A program made the translations under genes and the position numbers. Source: Candidatus Omnitrophota bacterium (lineage in GTDB: Bacteria; Omnitrophota; Gorgyraeia; Zapsychrales; JAHFFX01). Taken from it: a stretch of 32,270 nt of DNA. Location of the stretch: NCBI GenBank assembly GCA_023247705.1, contig JAHFFY010000022.1, forward strand, positions 1 through 32,270, read 5' to 3'. The notes under the pieces are model-generated. The model ran no database searches and had not been told where the DNA came from. It saw only the letters and a list, made by a program, of their open reading frames with translations. Each line of letters starts with the position of its first letter. Position 1 is the first letter of the stretch. Shown here piece after piece: positions 1 through 26,665 of this stretch.

Positions 1-1085
1 TTTTTAAGTTCACCTTTCATGTTTTGAAGGTTTCCTCGGGTCCTGCCAGTAACCGTCACTTGACGAACCTTATCAGCTAACGCCAACGCGCAGGCACTGC
101 CGATATCTCCCGTCCCGCCGACAACCGTTACTTTCAAATCCTTTAGGTCTTTTTCTAAAAGTTGTGCGGCCTTCTCTACTCCTTCAACCGCCAAGGCAGC
201 GGTATATGTATTTCCCGTCGTAACGGGAATATCCACATCTTCATTGATTCTTCTCCCCAGCCTCTCTCCAACAATCGAAGTAAAGCCACCCAAAGTCACA
301 ATTCCCACGCCGGATTTTTCCGCCAACTTGCAGGCACGCACAACTTTTGAATAAACAGCTTCCAAATCGTGAGCAACCATGTCCGGGATAAACGTACAAA
401 GAATAAATTGGCCATGCGTCGTTTCCCCTGTTTTGGATTTAAACTCTTTCATTTCATGCATTGTAAACGAAGGCGTCACGCGAAATAATTCGCTTAAAAA
501 TTCGATGGATGGTATTTTAAAACCAGGGTTCAGCATTTTAAAGCTCTCTACCATATGATTAAAGTTATAAAAATGCCCTAAAACACCGAAACCAGCAATT
601 TTATCCTTATCCCCTTTTCTAAAACTCGCGTACCGTTGGGAGACTAACCTCTGTTCCACAGATTCAAGAATGGCCTCAAAATTTCTGGTCACTAATGGTT
701 TTATGTACTCTGAGGTAAAGGCCTCAATACCAGGGATTCCCACGCTTAAATAAATTTCAACAATAATTTCTGTCCCCTGTGGATGTTCCCTGAATTGCCA
801 ATCCCCCCGAAATTCTTTCAAATCCCCTTCAATGGCTTTAAAATAAATAGAATTTTGATTTAAGGTAATCATATCTTCCTCAACCCAGTTTATGGGGAGA
901 CCATCGACCAGAATACGCCATTTTGTCTTTATGATATTGCGCGTTTTCTCAAGCACATCGACAGCTTTAATGGTCGGGACATACTGGGGGAATTCCCAAA
1001 CCCTTGTGATCATGCGGATGACCCGCCACCGGGAGGCATGAACAACCCTGGAGATTTTAATTTGGAGTAATTTTTCGGTTTGCAT
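1..1085 (-). CDS. START-like (SRPBCC) domain fused to acyl-ACP reductase-like dehydrogenase (3' end off window)
   Basis: The frame stays open from an ATG at 1085 to the window edge, giving 361 visible codons with no stop. Residues 1 to about 145 read as an SRPBCC/polyketide-cyclase (START-like) lipid-binding domain, with a typical N-terminal pattern VHASRWRVIRMI and a later EFRGDWQF strand. From about residue 160 the protein matches my memory of cyanobacterial long-chain acyl-ACP reductase (AAR). The shared landmarks are FGVLGHFYNFNHM, TLGGFTSIVGE, VTTGNTYTAA and a Rossmann loop GGTGDIGSA at 323-331. AAR reduces long-chain acyl-ACP or acyl-CoA to fatty aldehyde with NADPH. Its catalytic Cys lies further C-terminal, outside the window, so activity cannot be judged here. 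The start is one base after the stop of the FadL-like gene, with a poor ribosome site, which suggests translational coupling. The domain calls are good; the substrate is inferred. Confidence 0.8.
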   Translation of the reverse strand, partial: MQTEKLLQIKISRVVHASRWRVIRMITRVWEFPQYVPTIKAVDVLEKTRNIIKTKWRILVDGLPINWVEEDMITLNQNSIYFKAIEGDLKEFRGDWQFREHPQGTEIIVEIYLSVGIPGIEAFTSEYIKPLVTRNFEAILESVEQRLVSQRYASFRKGDKDKIAGFGVLGHFYNFNHMVESFKMLNPGFKIPSIEFLSELFRVTPSFTMHEMKEFKSKTGETTHGQFILCTFIPDMVAHDLEAVYSKVVRACKLAEKSGVGIVTLGGFTSIVGERLGRRINEDVDIPVTTGNTYTAALAVEGVEKAAQLLEKDLKDLKVTVVGGTGDIGSACALALADKVRQVTVTGRTRGNLQNMKGELK

Positions 1086-1086
1086 T

Positions 1087-2388
1087 TTAGAATTTATGTC
1101 CGAATGTCACTAAGACAATATTGACCATATTCTTATAGGTGCCGTCCAGATTTGCCCCCAACGCGTTGCCAAAGGTATTGTCAATTTTGGCATCACTATA
1201 AAACAAGCCAGACCAAGCCAGATCAACCGTTGAATTGCTGGTTACCTGATACCCTGCCCCTAAGCTTGGGCCATACATATTGGATGCCGGCACACTGCTT
1301 TCAAAAGTTGTTTTGGGGATCGGAGATTGATCATAAAACCCTCCAGCCCTCAAAACTAATTTTTCACTCCACTGATATTCCCCTCCAAAACTATACGAAA
1401 AAACACTTTTCCAATCGTGGTCGGATGCCGTTAAAGCGTCCAATATGGATAATCGCGTCGGATCGGATTCATCGGGAAAATCAACATGCTCCCGTTCAAT
1501 ACTTGACCAATCCATCCATTCGACATCAACATTAAACCGCCATTTGTCATTGGGGGTAAGACTATAACCCACGGCCACACTTTGCGGCAATTTTAAATCT
1601 GCCTCAAAGGCCGTTGAATACGATGCCCCTCCAAAAATTGTCATGTAGGGAAGCGTCCCCGCATCGTTTAATCGATCAGCCGTGGCTGTACCTTTGTAAT
1701 GGAGTTCGATCGGACTGCGGTAAATCAATCCCACCTGGTGATGTTCGTTGAACTTGTATAAGGTGGACAATGTGTAACCGACCGCCTCATCTTGGCCCTT
1801 TAACTGGGCATTGGCGTCGCTCCCCGGTAATTGATTGATCTGTTTTTCTTGGCTAAACTTGGAAATATCATAAATAACTCCCGCACCCAAGGAAAAATGT
1901 TCATTGAATTGGTAACTCGCCGTTAACGTATTGTCCACATTTTCCAATTCGCTATTGGTGGCGGAATAGGCGGAAAAACTGTCCTTGTTCCACGTCGAGG
2001 ATAGCCCCCAATTGGATGTTGTCCCAAAACCAAACACCACATGATCAAGACCGAAATCACTGACCGCAAAGATTGCAGGCAAAAGAAATGTTTCCCGCTG
2101 CATTTGAGCTTTATCACCGCTGGGACTGGTATGGCTTGTGATGGGTTGAATAGCGGATCCATCTATTGAGAAATGCGTACTGCCTTTAAGCTGGGTTAAG
2201 CCGGCGGGATTAAAAAAAACGGCTGAAGGGTTATCTGCTTCACCTGTAAAGGCATGCCCCTTCCCAGCCGCTTCAGAATCAATCGCGAAGATCCGAAATG
2301 CCCCTGACCCTGCCGCCATTACCGTTGAAACTGCTGAAAACATGATGAATGCAACAGTGAAGCCGATTTGACTGATTTTTTGTAACAT
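1087..2388 (-). CDS. FadL/TodX-family outer-membrane hydrophobic-substrate channel
   Basis: The 433-residue protein has a signal peptide (residues 1 to about 26, ending VMAAG) and the FadL-family N-terminal signature. That signature runs through SEAAGKGHAFTGEADNPSAV and then FFNPAGLTQLKG (about 38-70). The rest alternates short aromatic strands and turns as in a beta-barrel, and it ends in Phe (VTFGHKF), as outer-membrane proteins often do. FadL proteins carry long-chain fatty acids or other hydrophobic molecules across the outer membrane. The ATG has a good site (AGGAG, about 7 bases upstream). The next gene, one base downstream, carries lipid-binding and acyl-reductase-like domains, so a long-chain acyl substrate is plausible but inferred. 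The usual family size is about 420-450 residues, so this looks complete. Confidence 0.9.
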   Translation of the reverse strand: MLQKISQIGFTVAFIMFSAVSTVMAAGSGAFRIFAIDSEAAGKGHAFTGEADNPSAVFFNPAGLTQLKGSTHFSIDGSAIQPITSHTSPSGDKAQMQRETFLLPAIFAVSDFGLDHVVFGFGTTSNWGLSSTWNKDSFSAYSATNSELENVDNTLTASYQFNEHFSLGAGVIYDISKFSQEKQINQLPGSDANAQLKGQDEAVGYTLSTLYKFNEHHQVGLIYRSPIELHYKGTATADRLNDAGTLPYMTIFGGASYSTAFEADLKLPQSVAVGYSLTPNDKWRFNVDVEWMDWSSIEREHVDFPDESDPTRLSILDALTASDHDWKSVFSYSFGGEYQWSEKLVLRAGGFYDQSPIPKTTFESSVPASNMYGPSLGAGYQVTSNSTVDLAWSGLFYSDAKIDNTFGNALGANLDGTYKNMVNIVLVTFGHKF

Positions 2389-5893: not shown

Positions 5894-6824
5894 TTTTATT
5901 GATGACCACTTTCTTGGCGCCACGGCCGTCCCGGCCTAAGACACCGATCATTTTTCCGTTCACTTCAAATTCTAACTGATCGATATTTTTTCCGGAGAGT
6001 TCAATCTCTTTGTCAGCTGACCAGGTTTTGGTCACACCTTTTTTAAAAATAGCCTGAAAAACCACAGCACCATCCACCTTGACTAAGAGCCAGTTGTTCT
6101 TTTTGGCCCTGATAGAGACTTGGATACTCTTTTGTAAGGACTGATCCCCAACAGAACTCATTGCGGATGGCAGGGCAGCGCCGGATTCGGTTTGTTGATC
6201 CACCACACCTGCATCGGTGATGTCCGGTTTGGATTCGACAGACGAGACGACCTGTGAGACGGCCTTGGGAGATGAGACAACCGGAATGGATTCTTTAACA
6301 ATTTTTTCTATTTTCGGTTTGCGCGTATCTTTGGCAACGTTGATTTTTTCCACCTTCTCAACCGGCGCTTTTTTCTTTTGTAAGGACATATGCTGTTTAA
6401 CACAGCCGACGAATTTAATCATAAACAAAGAGATGACCAGAACACCGATGACCTTTCCAGCTAGCAGTAACCGTTCCGGGGTCACATACTTTTCTAATTT
6501 TTTCTGAAATTGATATTGATCTGGATGGACGATGGTATTTTCATCCGGCGAATCGTGAGGGACTTTTTTACCGAGAACATTCTGAGGCATATATTCTTCG
6601 CCTAAGATCTCCTTTAAATCCATTTCAAGATACTGGGCGTAGATTTTGAGAAATCCTTTCTGGTAAAACGGAGACAACGTCCGGGTGGTATAGCCCTCTT
6701 CCAGGGCACGCAGGGCATCGATGGGAATCTTGGTGCCTTCATGAATGGTTTCAAGAGACAGCCCCTTGGCCTCCCGGGTCTTTTTTAGCAACAATCCTTT
6801 GGGAAAAATCTGTTCGTTATCCAT
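5871..6824 (-). CDS. rodZ: RodZ-like membrane protein: N-terminal HTH, one TM helix, C-terminal DUF4115
   Basis: The 317-residue protein has an N-terminal HTH_25 domain (about 8-75; GLLLKKTREAKGLSLETI and QKGFLKIYAQYLEMDL). One membrane helix follows (about 119-142), then a low-complexity Lys/Pro/Val/Ser linker and a beta-rich DUF4115-type extracytoplasmic domain (about 234-310). In model bacteria RodZ links MreB filaments to the cell-wall elongation machinery, with the HTH binding MreB rather than DNA. It overlaps the end of ftsK by 8 bases and the start of rimO. An HTH/RodZ gene near ftsK and pgsA is also known in Firmicutes, which supports the call. The symbol is by architecture. Confidence 0.85.
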   Translation of the reverse strand: MDNEQIFPKGLLLKKTREAKGLSLETIHEGTKIPIDALRALEEGYTTRTLSPFYQKGFLKIYAQYLEMDLKEILGEEYMPQNVLGKKVPHDSPDENTIVHPDQYQFQKKLEKYVTPERLLLAGKVIGVLVISLFMIKFVGCVKQHMSLQKKKAPVEKVEKINVAKDTRKPKIEKIVKESIPVVSSPKAVSQVVSSVESKPDITDAGVVDQQTESGAALPSAMSSVGDQSLQKSIQVSIRAKKNNWLLVKVDGAVVFQAIFKKGVTKTWSADKEIELSGKNIDQLEFEVNGKMIGVLGRDGRGAKKVVINKNGLSVKK

Positions 6825-9120
6825 TTTCTTTGGGATTCATATGCTGCACGAGCCACTCTTCACGGTCGACTAAAATATCCCGCGGTTTGCTTCCGCAATA
6901 CGGGCCGACAATACCGTTTTGTTCCATGAGATCGATCAGCCTGGCCGCACGCGTATAACCTAAACGCATCCGTCTTTGAAGAATCGACACCGAGGCCTGG
7001 TTCGTTTCGATGACCAGTTTAACCGCCTCGTCATACAATTCATCTTTTTCGCCTTCCGCCCCTCCTGCTGAACCGGGCTGTTGTTTAAGGATCGTATCGT
7101 CATAGGTTGGGTCTTGCTGGGTCTTGATAAAATCAATAACTTTCTGAATCTCGCTGTCCGAGACAAAACCGCATTGTCCGCGCGTTGGTTTCGGGTCTCC
7201 GGGTTTCATAAATAACATATCGCCTTTTCCCAAAAGATTTTCCGCCCCGTTCATATCCAGAACCGTGCGGGAATCCACTTTGGAAGCAACTTTGAACGAA
7301 ATCCTCGCCGGAAAATTTGCTTTGATGACACCGGTGATGACATCCACCGACGGCCGTTGCGTGGCCAAAATCAGATGAATACCGACCGCGCGAGAAAGCT
7401 GAGCCAGCCTGGTGATCGCACTCTCGATCGTCTTGGCCGAGACCTGCATCAAGTCCGCCAATTCATCAATAATGATGACAATATAAGGCATCTTATGCCC
7501 TTTGGCATGATATCCCTTGATATTTCTCACCCCTGACTTGGCCAGCTGTGAATAGCGCGACTCCATCTCCCCCACCACCCAATTGAGCGCGGCCGAAACT
7601 TTTTTAGGGTCCGTCACCACCGGACAAAGAGAATGCGGCAGGGCGTTATATTGGGTCAACTCGACCATCTTGGGATCGACCATCAAAAATTTGACTTCGT
7701 CCGGTGACGCGTTAAAAAGCATCGACATGATGATACTGTTGACGCAAACCGTTTTGCCTGCTCCGGTCGTCCCGGCAATCAAAAGATGCGGCATTTCGCT
7801 TAAGTCGGCGACCATCGGTTTTCCAGAAATATCTTTACCCAGAGCTAGCATCAGTTGCTGACTCGAACCTCTGAATTTACTTTGAATCAACACATCTTTT
7901 AAATAAACAGCACTCGTGGCGCCATTAGGAACTTCGATCCCGACCCGATTTTTTCCCGGGATCGGAGCGACGATTCTCACGGTCTGCGCGCGCATCGCCA
8001 ACGCGATATCATCGGACAGCGTCGTAATTTTCTGGACCTTAACTCCAGGCGCCGGTTCCAATTCATAGCGGGTAATCACCGGACCCCGCTCAATATCCGC
8101 AACCCGCGCGCTCACGCCAAAATCCGACAAGGTTTCTTCAAGCACCTTGGCGCCGCTGACCAAATCTTCCTGCATTTTTTTGGAGGAAACCACCGGTGAG
8201 GTTTCCAATAAATCCAATGGTGGGATATGATACTCACCGACAATTTTGGGTTTTTCATTCTCCAGCGCGGGCTTTCCTGTTTTTTCTTCCGGGTTCGCGA
8301 TACGGATCTGGGGTTTCGCAGGCGCCGGCTTCTGTTCTTCTTTAATTCCTTTGGCTTCAATTTTATTTTCCGGTTTCTTCGCTTCAATTTTTTCGTTGTC
8401 TTTATCCGGTTTTGATGGAGACTCTTCGTCATCGATTTCTTTCACAGCGGCTGATCTTTTGATCAGTTCCCGAATACGCTCTTCTTTATTTAGTTCGGGC
8501 GTCGGTTGCTGAGCTTTCTTGGCGACAACCGGTTTGACATTAACGATTTTTTGTTTTTTAGCGAATATTTTCTTCCGGGCAACAATCAAGAAATCTTTCA
8601 CCTGTTCGACAATTCTGAAAATAAAAGGTGACACCAAAAATTCGCCGATCAGGATTAAGGTCATAGTTCCTAATGCGAAAAGGATAATGTAGCTTCCGGT
8701 CCGCCCCAGATACTGGATAAGGAAATTCGAAAAAACAAGCCCGATCAATCCACCGCGTTCAAAACGCTCGGCTGAACTCTGCGGTCCGGTCATGGCAAAG
8801 AGTGCGCCGAGAACGGAAAACAAGACGCTGAAACTGACAAATTTGGCGAAAGAAAAACTCAAATTTCGGGAAGAAAATTTATTCCAGCTCCAGAAAAAAA
8901 GAAAAAGGACAATAAAAAAAGCACTGTATCCGATGATAAAAAACAAAGAACCGGCGACATAGGCGCCGACGATTCTTATTAAATTTTTTGCTGGGATATT
9001 AGGTTGGGAAGTATACCAGGAAAGATCTTCCGGGATAAATGATACAAGACTGGCCAGTAGGATCATTGCCCCTGAAAGAACAATAATGGCCTTGATCTCA
9101 TCAATATATTGACGTTTCAT
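6817..9120 (-). CDS. ftsK: FtsK/SpoIIIE DNA translocase
   Basis: The 767-residue chromosome pump acts at the division septum. It has four or so N-terminal membrane segments (about 10-165). A charged Lys/Glu/Pro linker (about 180-290) is short compared with E. coli FtsK. The motor domain shows Walker A GTTGAGKT (about residue 450) and Walker B IVIIIDELADLM. The C-terminal winged-helix gamma domain (last ~65 residues; ILQRRMRLGYTRAARLIDLM) normally reads the polar KOPS-type sequences. It starts as ATGA, overlapping the pnp stop, and overlaps rodZ by 8 bases. It appears complete. Confidence 0.96.
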   Translation of the reverse strand: MKRQYIDEIKAIIVLSGAMILLASLVSFIPEDLSWYTSQPNIPAKNLIRIVGAYVAGSLFFIIGYSAFFIVLFLFFWSWNKFSSRNLSFSFAKFVSFSVLFSVLGALFAMTGPQSSAERFERGGLIGLVFSNFLIQYLGRTGSYIILFALGTMTLILIGEFLVSPFIFRIVEQVKDFLIVARKKIFAKKQKIVNVKPVVAKKAQQPTPELNKEERIRELIKRSAAVKEIDDEESPSKPDKDNEKIEAKKPENKIEAKGIKEEQKPAPAKPQIRIANPEEKTGKPALENEKPKIVGEYHIPPLDLLETSPVVSSKKMQEDLVSGAKVLEETLSDFGVSARVADIERGPVITRYELEPAPGVKVQKITTLSDDIALAMRAQTVRIVAPIPGKNRVGIEVPNGATSAVYLKDVLIQSKFRGSSQQLMLALGKDISGKPMVADLSEMPHLLIAGTTGAGKTVCVNSIIMSMLFNASPDEVKFLMVDPKMVELTQYNALPHSLCPVVTDPKKVSAALNWVVGEMESRYSQLAKSGVRNIKGYHAKGHKMPYIVIIIDELADLMQVSAKTIESAITRLAQLSRAVGIHLILATQRPSVDVITGVIKANFPARISFKVASKVDSRTVLDMNGAENLLGKGDMLFMKPGDPKPTRGQCGFVSDSEIQKVIDFIKTQQDPTYDDTILKQQPGSAGGAEGEKDELYDEAVKLVIETNQASVSILQRRMRLGYTRAARLIDLMEQNGIVGPYCGSKPRDILVDREEWLVQHMNPKENG

Positions 9121-15542: not shown

Positions 15543-15866
15543 TTAGAGGGTGATTTTATCTGCGATATCGGAGATGAGCGGGAGTTTTACATACTGGCCT
15601 CTTAAGGCCTCGATCATCCCCCACAAAGAAAGGATCCCCAGCACAAATATAAACGGCCGGAAAATAATTTCAATAATAACGCTGATGACAAACACAGCCA
15701 CTTCGGCAACAAAAAGAACAAGCCCTTGCTTGGCGTGGGATAAAACGAAATTATTTTCTTTTTTGAAGATCAACGGAATAATGCAAAAAATTGAAATATA
15801 GGATAGGACTGCAAAAATTTTTCCTTCTAAAACTTGAGTTTCGTTTTGTTTCTCACTTGTGGCCAT
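15543..15866 (-). CDS. DUF4870-type small membrane protein
   Basis: The 107-residue protein has a short polar N-terminus and three to four hydrophobic segments. The phrases VLSYISIFCIIPLIFKKENN and FVLSHAKQGLVLFVAEVAVF are typical of the DUF4870/Tic20-like family. It ends GMIEALRGQYVKLPLISDIA, also family-typical. The function of the family is not established. It overlaps the end of the ParA-CBM48 gene by 14 bases, with a GAGGT ribosome site inside that gene. It is followed after 8 bases by the basic EF-Tu-II-like gene. Tight spacing implies coordinated synthesis with the ParA fusion. A membrane partner for it is an inference from position. Confidence 0.85.
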   Translation of the reverse strand: MATSEKQNETQVLEGKIFAVLSYISIFCIIPLIFKKENNFVLSHAKQGLVLFVAEVAVFVISVIIEIIFRPFIFVLGILSLWGMIEALRGQYVKLPLISDIADKITL

Positions 15867-16953
15867 TCGATTTGACCTCGATCAAGGAATTGACGTCTCC
15901 GAAAGAATTTCTCTCCTGAGCCGGATTAAGCGGGTCTTCTCTCCATTTTCCGTCGACAATAAACTGATATTTGTAGATCCCGGGATTTAAAACGACCTGA
16001 ACTTCCCAGCGACCGTTTTGTTTATTCATCCGATATGCTTCCTCAAGGGCCCAATCATTAAAACTTCCGGTAACATAAACCGAACTGGCTTCCGGGGCCT
16101 CCAGACTAAAAGATGTTTGCAGAATGTTTTTGGTCTCTTCTTTCACCAATTGCTTCATCTTGGCAGAAAGACCGGTTCCGACGGTCGTCTTTTCTCCTGT
16201 TTCCGCAATGATGATTTCCCGTGATAACGAAAAATAATCTTTCGCTCCTCGACAGTATTTGTCATACGTCACAACCGTTTCACCCAAAACCGCTGATTCT
16301 TTTAGCTTCACATTGACATGTATGATTGTGTCAAAAAGAATATCTGCGAATTGTTCTTTAATCTTGGATAACATCGAAAAAGAATGGCGTAAACGAGAAT
16401 CAAACATCGTGATTAAGACACGGGAGGTCACCGGGTGGTTCAACCGGTCTTTGATCAAATTAACGATGTCCATGAGATGTTCAACCCCCTGCAGGGAAAA
16501 GCGACTGGTTTCGACTGGAATGATGACTTCCTGGCTTGCCCGGATCGCGTTGACCGTAAGAAATCCTAAACTGGGCGGACAATCAATCAGGATGTATTCG
16601 TATTTCCCTTTCTGGGTTGATATAATCTCGGTCAGTTTCAATTCCCGGCCGATTTCATCGGCCAATTCTTGTTCGAGCGTTCCAACCAGGATGTTGGAGG
16701 GAACAATATCAAACTTTCCTTCGACGGTAGTAATGATATCGTCTAATTTTAATTTTCTGGGGGTCAGTTTTGAAATAACGTTATAAATACTGTTCGGGGA
16801 ATTGATATTTAAACCCAGAGACGCGTGGGCCTGAGGATCGAGATCGATCAATAAAGTCTTTTTGCCATTAATGGCTAAGGCACAAGCTAAATTAATTGCC
16901 GTTGTTGTTTTACCACATCCACCCTTTTGGTTTGCTATTGAGATAACTCTCAT
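15853..16953 (-). CDS. ParA-family ATPase fused to CBM48/AMPK-beta-like glycogen-binding domain
   Basis: The protein has 366 residues. Residues 1 to about 255 are a ParA/MinD-type ATPase with the deviant Walker A KGGCGKTT (10-17, signature Lys10 and Lys15), DLDPQAHAS (38-45) and Walker B IDCPP (D124). Such ATPases dimerise on ATP and position cargo on the nucleoid or membrane. Residues about 280-360 match the AMPK-beta/CBM48 fold. They keep equivalents of the sugar-contacting residues: W301 in GSFNDW, K328 in YKYQF, W337 in DGKW and N355 in FGDVN. A glycogen- or glucan-directed positioning ATPase is the natural inference. The ATG has an AAGGAGG site. It overlaps the DUF4870 gene, and no ParB-like gene is seen nearby. 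Confidence 0.92.
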   Translation of the reverse strand: MRVISIANQKGGCGKTTTAINLACALAINGKKTLLIDLDPQAHASLGLNINSPNSIYNVISKLTPRKLKLDDIITTVEGKFDIVPSNILVGTLEQELADEIGRELKLTEIISTQKGKYEYILIDCPPSLGFLTVNAIRASQEVIIPVETSRFSLQGVEHLMDIVNLIKDRLNHPVTSRVLITMFDSRLRHSFSMLSKIKEQFADILFDTIIHVNVKLKESAVLGETVVTYDKYCRGAKDYFSLSREIIIAETGEKTTVGTGLSAKMKQLVKEETKNILQTSFSLEAPEASSVYVTGSFNDWALEEAYRMNKQNGRWEVQVVLNPGIYKYQFIVDGKWREDPLNPAQERNSFGDVNSLIEVKSNGHK

Positions 16954-24996: not shown

Positions 24997-25857
24997 TTAG
25001 TTCAATTGCTCTGTAGAATTTCGCTCTATAAATTCGGTGGCTAATAAAATCTTTACCGGCAGTCTCGCCTGGCCATGGGTGATTTGATAAAGATTCTCAA
25101 CGCCCAAACGGCCCATTTCAACGAGAGGCTGATTCACCGTGGTCAATTTTATTGAATTATTAAAGCTGATGGGATTATTATCGAATCCGATGATGGAGAG
25201 ATCTTCCGGGATCCGGATGTTAAAACTTCTGGCCACATCAATCAGTTCTAACGCCATCACATCGGAGGCGGCGAAAATGGCGGTCGGCCTGTCCGCGAGA
25301 TTTAAAAGTTTTTCTGCTGATTTTCTCGCCGGAGTACGGAGAAAATCGCCAAACGCAATATAACGTTTTTGAATCTTGATATTATGGGATTCTAGGGCTT
25401 CCTTATAACCGTCTAAACGCATCAACCCGGATTGAGTCGTCTGATCACCGGCAATTGTCGCGATTTGGGTATGTCCTAAATTAACAAAATGTTCGGTCAC
25501 GTCAAACGCGGCTTGTTTATTGTCGACGGCAATATAGTTGATCGGTTCGGCGATCATGTTATTCAAAACGATACAGGGAATTCCGGAGCGGATCGCTTTC
25601 TTGACAACCTGTAAATCGTTATCAATATCGGCAAAAATAATACCGCTGATATATTGCCGATTCAACAGAGTGGAATCAAGCCATCCGCGATGGTCGAAAC
25701 GGTCGGTGATATGCAAAAGAATATCCACGTTTAAACGGCTCGAGGCCAACCCGACTCCTTTCAAGATCTCTGAAGCATAAAAAGAATGGAAGATATCTTC
25801 AAATCTGGGAATGACTAAAACGAAAATTTGTTTTGCTTTTTTAACTCTCATCGACAT
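24997..25857 (-). CDS. LacI/GalR-type ligand-binding protein lacking the DNA-binding domain
   Basis: The 286-residue protein is a periplasmic-binding-protein-like sensor domain of the LacI/GalR family almost from its first residue (KAKQIFVLVIPRFEDIFHSF). Landmarks are NYIAVDNKQAAFDVTEHFVN, HTQIATIAGDQTTQSGLMRL, AIFAASDVMALELIDVA and EDLSIIGFDNNPIS. The usual 50-60-residue helix-turn-helix plus hinge is missing. It cannot hide upstream, because the first 17 bases overlap the sigma-factor gene. There is no signal peptide, so it should be cytoplasmic. It may sense a sugar or nucleoside and act through protein contacts, but this is inference. The site AAGGA lies inside the sigma gene. An alternative ATG two codons downstream exists. 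Confidence 0.85.
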   Translation of the reverse strand: MSMRVKKAKQIFVLVIPRFEDIFHSFYASEILKGVGLASSRLNVDILLHITDRFDHRGWLDSTLLNRQYISGIIFADIDNDLQVVKKAIRSGIPCIVLNNMIAEPINYIAVDNKQAAFDVTEHFVNLGHTQIATIAGDQTTQSGLMRLDGYKEALESHNIKIQKRYIAFGDFLRTPARKSAEKLLNLADRPTAIFAASDVMALELIDVARSFNIRIPEDLSIIGFDNNPISFNNSIKLTTVNQPLVEMGRLGVENLYQITHGQARLPVKILLATEFIERNSTEQLN

Positions 25858-26665
25858 GATGCCTGTCCTTCTTTTTGAGTAAACGTCTTATTTTTTTTAG
25901 AGTAGATGCTTCGACCTGCCGGATGCGTTCGCGCGAGACACCCATTTTAGCCGCAATCTCGGCCAAGGTGTGCGTGTTTCCATCAGTTAAACCAAACCGC
26001 AAATCGATGATTTTTTTCTCGCGTTCAGTGAGCATCTCCAGAATCTCCAATGCCCGCTCTTTATTCAAAAACGTCTCCAGTTCGTCTTCCGGACTGACTA
26101 AACTTTGATCCTCGATAAGATCTTTCACCTGTCCATCCCCGTCTTCGCCGATCGGGGCATCCAGGCTGGACATCTTGGTGATACATTGATCCAATTCCCG
26201 AACCTTTTCAACGCTCATTTGCAATCTCTTCGCCACTTCCCCGACACTGGGTTTCCGTTTTAATTTATGCGACAAGGTCTCCGTGACTTTTTTATATTTT
26301 AGAATCTCTTCGTTGACATAAACGGGCACTCGGATCATCTTGCCTTGATCGATAATCGCCCGGGAAATCCCTTGTTTGATCCACCATGCGGCGTACGTCG
26401 AGAAACGAAAACCCCTCTCAGGATCGAATTTCTCAACCGCCTTCATCAAACCGATATTTCCCTCTTCAATCAAGTCGCTCAACGGAACACCAAGATTGCT
26501 GTACTTCTTGGCGATGCTGATGACCAGGCGCAGGTTGGAACGGATCATCTGCTCACGGGCGGCTTTATCCCCTTTTCTAATACGACGGGCCACTTCCAAT
26601 TCTTTCTCCGCCGTCAAAAGCGGAATAGGCCGAACATCTTTAAGGTAGGCTTTGATGGGATCCAT
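25841..26665 (-). CDS. RpoD/SigA-like sigma-70 family RNA polymerase sigma factor, short form
   Basis: The 274-residue protein has region 1.2 (DPIKAYLKDVRPIPLLTAEKE), then region 2 with NLRLVISIAKKY, DLIEEGNIGLMKAVEKFDPE and FSTYAAWWIKQGISRAI. Region 3 follows, then region 4 with TLAEIAAKMGVSRERIRQVE. It lacks region 1.1 and the long non-conserved insertion of primary sigmas, so a group 2 (RpoS-like) factor is as likely as the housekeeping one. No ribosome site precedes the ATG (26663-26665); a purine-rich stretch lies about 55 bases upstream at the end of ppdK. The 3' end overlaps the HTH-less LacI-type gene by 17 bases, so the two are made together. Confidence 0.93.
   Translation of the reverse strand: MDPIKAYLKDVRPIPLLTAEKELEVARRIRKGDKAAREQMIRSNLRLVISIAKKYSNLGVPLSDLIEEGNIGLMKAVEKFDPERGFRFSTYAAWWIKQGISRAIIDQGKMIRVPVYVNEEILKYKKVTETLSHKLKRKPSVGEVAKRLQMSVEKVRELDQCITKMSSLDAPIGEDGDGQVKDLIEDQSLVSPEDELETFLNKERALEILEMLTEREKKIIDLRFGLTDGNTHTLAEIAAKMGVSRERIRQVEASTLKKIRRLLKKKDRHHVDES

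Follow-up and report, generated by a model that had tools for sequence, protein, structure and literature searches.

A fusion of SRPBCC and acyl-ACP reductase domains in Omnitrophota is encoded next to 7TM sensor kinases in a candidate lipid-signal cassette

The window, i.e., the whole stretch of DNA analysed here, comprises all 32,270 bases of contig C16 from an Omnitrophota genome of 2.42 Mb, whose nearest named relatives are Omnitrophota MAGs; the contigs themselves represent a MAG with gaps, and the starts of open reading frames were assigned mechanically. At the beginning of the window, the minus strand carries the 5' 361 codons of a gene (3..1085) coding for an SRPBCC domain fused to an acyl-ACP reductase (AAR), the frame of which starts with an ATG at position 1085 and runs off the contig edge at position 3, where the 3' end of the gene is cut. 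The SRPBCC or START-like domain comprises residues about 1-150 (636..1085, minus strand; boundary approximate) and is followed by the N-terminal and NADPH-binding part of the AAR domain at residues about 166-361 (3..590, minus strand). The latter includes a GGTGDIG dinucleotide-recognition loop (99..119, minus strand), corresponding to 162-GATGDIG-168 of the AAR from S. elongatus (SeAAR; loop definition in PMC7089970). Directly upstream lies a gene for an outer-membrane lipid transporter of the FadL/TodX type (1087..2388, minus strand; PF03349, E 1.4e-63), with a single base separating its stop codon from the start codon of the fusion gene. Two other minus-strand genes of the window may be noted. 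One of them (15853-16953) codes for an ATPase of the ParA/Soj type (AAA_31) that is joined to an AMPK-like glycogen-recognition domain (AMPK1_CBM, E 1.2e-17), the other (24997-25857) for a protein with a LacI-type sugar-binding domain and no DNA-binding domain as judged by Pfam; its start and the end of a sigma-70-like gene (25841-26665) overlap.

The missing part of the fusion gene has been located on a second contig of this genome, C12 (G000:C12:2-388), the first 388 bases of which contain the only other strong AAR match of the window genome and code for the motif CYGCFCE. Alignment on a complete relative, L007, yields identities of 76% and 83% for the pieces on C16 and C12, respectively, and indicates that about 32 codons are missing between them; the complete relatives are 517-523 amino acids long. 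On C12, the fusion gene is followed by genes for an HpnA-type SDR, a protein with a formyltransferase domain, a histidine kinase of the HisKA_7TM-GAF type, a receiver protein, and a pair of ketosynthases. If C16 and C12 are joined, the resulting order is the same as that on a single contig of L043, a relative from the same taxonomic order (FadL > SRPBCC-AAR > HpnA > FMT > 7TM kinase), which supports the presence of one gene split over the two contigs. Two separate gene copies are disfavoured by this joined order in L043 and by the fact that only two complementary fragments at contig ends are found.

That the 361 visible residues join an SRPBCC domain to an AAR domain, as proposed in the initial annotation, is borne out by matches to Pfam, TIGRFAM, and PDB entries. 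PF03364 (Polyketide_cyc) matches residues 24-129 with an E value of 8.8e-12 and 45.8 bits, compared to a Pfam cutoff of 23.4, and the domain also matches TTHA0849 (2d4r) with an E value of 1.7e-10. An AlphaFold model of L007, which is based on a 43-row alignment and has a mean pLDDT of 91.8, contains an N-terminal domain with TM-scores (by target) of 0.93 to TTHA0849 and 0.83 to TcmN-type aromatase/cyclases. The domain thus shares the helix-grip fold with these proteins, but differs from them in being fused to an AAR, and a cyclase activity is not implied by the likeness.

The AAR part of the window matches positions 2-201 of the 339 positions of TIGR04058 (E 2.2e-27) and the PDB entry 6jzz for AAR (E 1.3e-19), while the complete fusion of L007 extends the match to positions 2-335 with an E value of 1.5e-50 and aligns with SeAAR and the N-terminal domain of PigE across their reductase domains. 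The full-length L007 protein scores 172.4 bits, which is below the NCBIfam equivalog cutoff of 449.7 for TIGR04058. In the structural model, the best Foldseek matches in the PDB are the AAR-ADO complexes 6jzy and 6jzu, with TM-scores to AAR of 0.84-0.86 by target. Glutamyl-tRNA reductase and shikimate dehydrogenase, which had been named as competing family assignments, are ruled out by this fold and by the scores, AAR being far ahead of the hemA profile with its E value of 1.6e-7. The catalytic cysteine, lying beyond the visible part of the window gene, is conserved as well: C450 of L007 follows the first loop glycine by 132 residues and aligns with C294 of SeAAR, on which the acyl-enzyme is formed (PMC7089970, PMC8187606). 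The equivalent residue is a cysteine in 39 of 41 SRPBCC fusions and a serine in L056 and L057, the loop glycines (GXGXXG) are retained in all 41, and the equivalent of Y247 is mostly retained. This set excludes two proteins first included because of their length, L042 16641-18227 and L080 9652-11253, neither of which contains an SRPBCC domain. As judged from this homology, the fusion enzyme probably forms fatty aldehydes from fatty acids, an assignment of the enzymology that may be regarded as well supported.

The absence of an aldehyde-deformylating oxygenase (ADO) from the window, as stated in the initial annotation, likewise proved correct, and extends further: PF11266 was absent from the window and from all 384 Omnitrophota genomes, while the S. 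elongatus control was found. Alkane synthesis is rejected as the function of these enzymes, as this sample of the phylum contains no ADO. Of the residues at the ADO-docking positions, R73 and R79, which SeAAR needs for ADO binding (PMC7089970), are mostly replaced in the fusions by D and S, respectively, and K80 is kept. Some loci additionally code for stand-alone AAR paralogues in which the catalytic cysteine is replaced by serine or alanine (L051 6522-7598, L057 5325-6353, L058 4959-5972, L085 3-974, and L090 1981-2970). Their genes are located upstream of a PlsC gene and beside fusions which mostly keep the cysteine, and they are perhaps non-catalytic partners. In L056, a minus-strand gene for a LuxD-like acyltransferase joined to a methyltransferase (6095-7795) adjoins the fusion with serine in the position of the catalytic cysteine.

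The fusion was detected (E <= 1e-100) in 61 of 384 genomes sampled across the Omnitrophota, in 35 of 384 genomes of a class sample, and in only 5 of 81 genomes from the order of the window genome, indicating a widespread but patchy distribution within the Omnitrophota genomes covered by these counts. In a tree of the AAR domains spanning more than one class, the main fusion group forms one branch with a support of 96, outside of which are placed the stand-alone AARs and another SRPBCC-AAR group of greater divergence (L070-L072). A search of plasmids yielded no SRPBCC-AAR fusion. No publication linking AAR to SRPBCC domains, Omnitrophota, or quorum sensing was found in the literature searched, which was partly covered at the level of titles and abstracts.

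A view on about 60 loci shows that the gene neighbourhood of the fusion is well conserved. In 36 of 38 informative loci, one of the first three genes downstream of the fusion codes for a sensor histidine kinase, usually with a 7TM domain; L053 and L054 are the true exceptions, and three further loci run out at contig edges. The first downstream kinase is recognisable by sequence comparison as a 7TM kinase in 32 loci; the window genome codes for only four HisKA_7TM kinases in total. Genes for receiver-only regulators, a PF12147 methyltransferase, another kinase, and HD-GYP proteins are often found further downstream, and an aldehyde dehydrogenase family gene, followed by a second 7TM kinase, is present a few genes 3' of the fusion in L044 (3430-5019), L045, and L050. 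The initial annotation had considered wax, ether lipid, or another product. While its assignments of the fusion, the AAR family, the catalytic cysteine, and the missing ADO have all stood, a wax or ether lipid finds no support as the principal interpretation, since the conserved neighbours indicate a dedicated and variably tailored lipid made beside a sensor kinase.

Several of the neighbouring genes are connected with lipids. A PlsC-type acyltransferase is encoded directly upstream in 21 of 43 AAR loci, and FadL takes this position in the clade of the window genome (also in L007, L008, L043, and L089). In L007, plsX-fabH-fabD are located upstream, with two other open reading frames between these genes and FadL, whereas fabH-fabD-fabG adjoin the fusion in L008 and KS/KS/ACP/FabZ sets are found in other loci. 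The two ketosynthases of the window genome (L010 5030-6262 and 6289-7527) form a pair, the first of which lacks the active-site cysteine and both histidines present in the second and, by its sequence, looks like a chain-length-factor partner. The PlsC genes and KS/KS/ACP/FabZ sets resemble a lipid-building pathway and are compatible with a product that is not a signal but a lipid for structural use or secretion, such as a fatty alcohol, an ester, an amide, or a glycolipid of the envelope. In this case, the kinase would regulate the operon by sensing the envelope or an unrelated cue; the co-variation of the sensors described below makes this explanation somewhat unlikely. A further alternative is a catabolic function, in which FadL would import exogenous lipids, GMC oxidoreductases, aldehyde dehydrogenases, and SDRs would act on alcohols and aldehydes, AAR would run in reverse from aldehyde to acyl thioester, PlsC would use the resulting acyl chain for phospholipid formation, and the imported compound would be sensed by the kinase. 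FadL adjoining the AAR gene in the clade of the window genome and the GMC and aldehyde dehydrogenase genes of some loci would fit such a pathway, but many copies of the fusion gene are adjoined by chain-building genes (a KS pair, ACP, FabZ, FabG, or plsX-fabH-fabD), and some of the genes next to the kinase code for aminotransferases together with N-acyl or N-formyl transferases, which are anabolic in their known relatives. The catabolic reading as a whole is considered improbable.

The position between the fusion and the kinase constitutes a variable slot for potential tailoring enzymes. Among 50 loci, it is empty in 32, which would also be in line with a structural lipid, and contains SDRs of the HpnA and related types in eight, a class III aminotransferase in four, and a GMC oxidoreductase in three cases; a B12-radical SAM protein, a LuxD-methyltransferase, and a small protein of no known type were found once each. 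The slot of the window genome contains the HpnA-type SDR and the formyltransferase. A separate gene for a PigE-type aminotransferase directly after the fusion is confined to L060, L065, L095, and L103, and the enzyme of L060 matches the aminotransferase domain of the PigE model with 481 bits. The next gene codes for a GNAT acyltransferase in L060, L095, and, by position, L103, and for a formyltransferase in L065. In PigE and TamH, AAR-like thioester reduction feeds a transamination (PMC8341465, PMC9594044), and this coupling of reductase and transaminase, together with the occurrence of aminotransferases in the slot, supports an aldehyde as the product of the AAR.

The contents of the slot co-vary with the sensor domain of the adjacent kinase. 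The identity of the kinase cores tracks that of the AARs (r 0.84), whereas the identity of the 7TM domains does so weakly (r 0.28). Conversely, 14 of 15 tailored loci share their tailoring class with the nearest neighbour by 7TM domain (mean of the permutations 1.5; a value of 14 was reached in none of 5,000 label shuffles), compared to 6 of 15 by GAF domain, none of 15 by kinase core, and 4 of 14 by AAR. The tailoring labels require 8 changes on the sensor tree, but 14 on the AAR tree and 17 on the kinase tree. The sensors of the aminotransferase loci and those of the GMC loci each form one clade with a support of 98, and a single aminotransferase clade is rejected for the kinase cores (p-AU 0.03). 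The SDR loci occur in more than one sensor clade (three changes; single clade rejected with p-AU 6e-6), L085 being an exception. In several loci, among them those of the window genome and the L061 group, the switch between the two relationships is located near residue 240 of the kinase, where the 7TM domain ends. For the window genome, the closest 7TM domain is that of L043 (56% identity), both loci containing HpnA and FMT, while the closest kinase core is that of L007, which has an empty slot and shows an identity of 31% in the 7TM domain, rising to 58-87% past residue 240. It should be noted that the 50 loci used to measure the association include the 33 on which it had first been seen, and this overlap means that the pattern is not independently confirmed.

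This co-variation (14 of 15 compared to 0 of 15) is what would be expected if receptor specificity were tied to the chemistry of the synthase, but it is correlational, and adjacency may be its cause. Since the tailoring genes are located directly upstream of the segment coding for the 7TM domain, transfer of a block that starts at the 3' end of the AAR gene and extends into that of the kinase could have moved both without any functional tie. Such hitchhiking would fit the gene order, but would explain less readily why the switch coincides in several loci with the point where the 7TM domain ends, or the similarity of SDR-class sensors across two classes of the phylum, and is regarded as unlikely. 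A structural lipid alone would fail to predict that only the 7TM domain tracks the tailoring class, with the kinase core tracking the AAR; a catabolic pathway likewise predicts sensor-tailoring co-variation.

Taken together, we slightly favour the interpretation that the cassette both produces and senses an aldehyde-derived lipid, representing a self-sensing lipid-signal system. The domain identities, catalytic residues, fold, conserved operon, and sensor-tailoring co-variation have been established by sequence analysis and computation, and the sensing of the cassette's own product is what we infer from them. In the proposed mechanism, an acyl chain would be transferred from ACP (or CoA) to the AAR cysteine and be reduced with NADPH to the fatty aldehyde, while the SRPBCC domain probably serves to keep hold of the hydrophobic chain or aldehyde before passing it on. 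The enzymes of the slot (an SDR, a GMC oxidoreductase, or an aminotransferase followed by a GNAT or formyltransferase) would convert the aldehyde to the final lipid. The product would be released from the cell, for which the upstream FadL may serve as a port in the window genome, and the 7TM domain of the adjacent kinase would recognise either the aldehyde or the tailored product, ligand binding being assumed to involve residues 1-240. The kinase would in turn signal to the receiver-only regulators and the HD-GYP and methyltransferase partners, and the locus would then work in the manner of the Phc, DSF, and Lqs systems of fatty acid-derived quorum sensing, with AAR as the signal-forming enzyme. 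More tentatively, these cassettes may serve lipid communication among Omnitrophota, with SRPBCC-AAR providing the aldehyde precursor, an interchangeable tailoring enzyme setting the chemistry of the signal, and an interchangeable 7TM domain acting as the matching receptor, the latter two being exchanged together. The pattern suggests an undescribed family of lipid-based chemical communication systems.

AAR is known chiefly from cyanobacterial alkane synthesis and from pathways for pyrrole antibiotics. In the Omnitrophota, the reductase is present in about one in six of the genomes sampled, where the oxygenase is lacking and the enzyme is joined to a putative lipid-holding domain and linked to a sensor kinase. 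If self-sensing holds true, the cassettes would provide a testable chemical language for an uncultured phylum, and the matched variation of tailoring enzymes and 7TM domains would offer ready-made pairs of ligands and receptors for the poorly understood HisKA_7TM sensors.

Compared to the cyanobacterial AARs (S. elongatus, PDB 6jzq-6jzz, TIGR04058), the fusion shares the fold, the NADPH-binding loop, and the acyl-accepting cysteine at an identity of about 28-29%, but contains the additional N-terminal SRPBCC domain, and neither the partner ADO (in the Omnitrophota sample) nor R73 and R79 are conserved. PigE and TamH from prodigiosin and tambjamine biosynthesis contain a homologous reductase with the same cysteine that delivers the aldehyde to a class III aminotransferase. 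There, the reductase is fused to the aminotransferase, whereas the Omnitrophota reductase is fused to SRPBCC instead and the aminotransferase is encoded separately in some loci. With the Phc, DSF/Rpf, and Lqs systems, the Omnitrophota loci share a lipid-making enzyme encoded beside a membrane histidine kinase and receiver-only regulators, and an HD-GYP partner is also part of DSF/Rpf. In Paraburkholderia graminis, the gene for a homologue of the PF12147 methyltransferase precedes those for an ATP-binding protein and two response regulators, and this order (methyltransferase-kinase-receiver-receiver) resembles phcB-phcS-phcR-phcQ (PMC8578825), the likeness being one of gene order. Unlike all of these signalling systems, the Omnitrophota loci combine an AAR as putative signal-forming enzyme with a variable tailoring slot and a 7TM-GAF kinase with an exchanged sensor domain.
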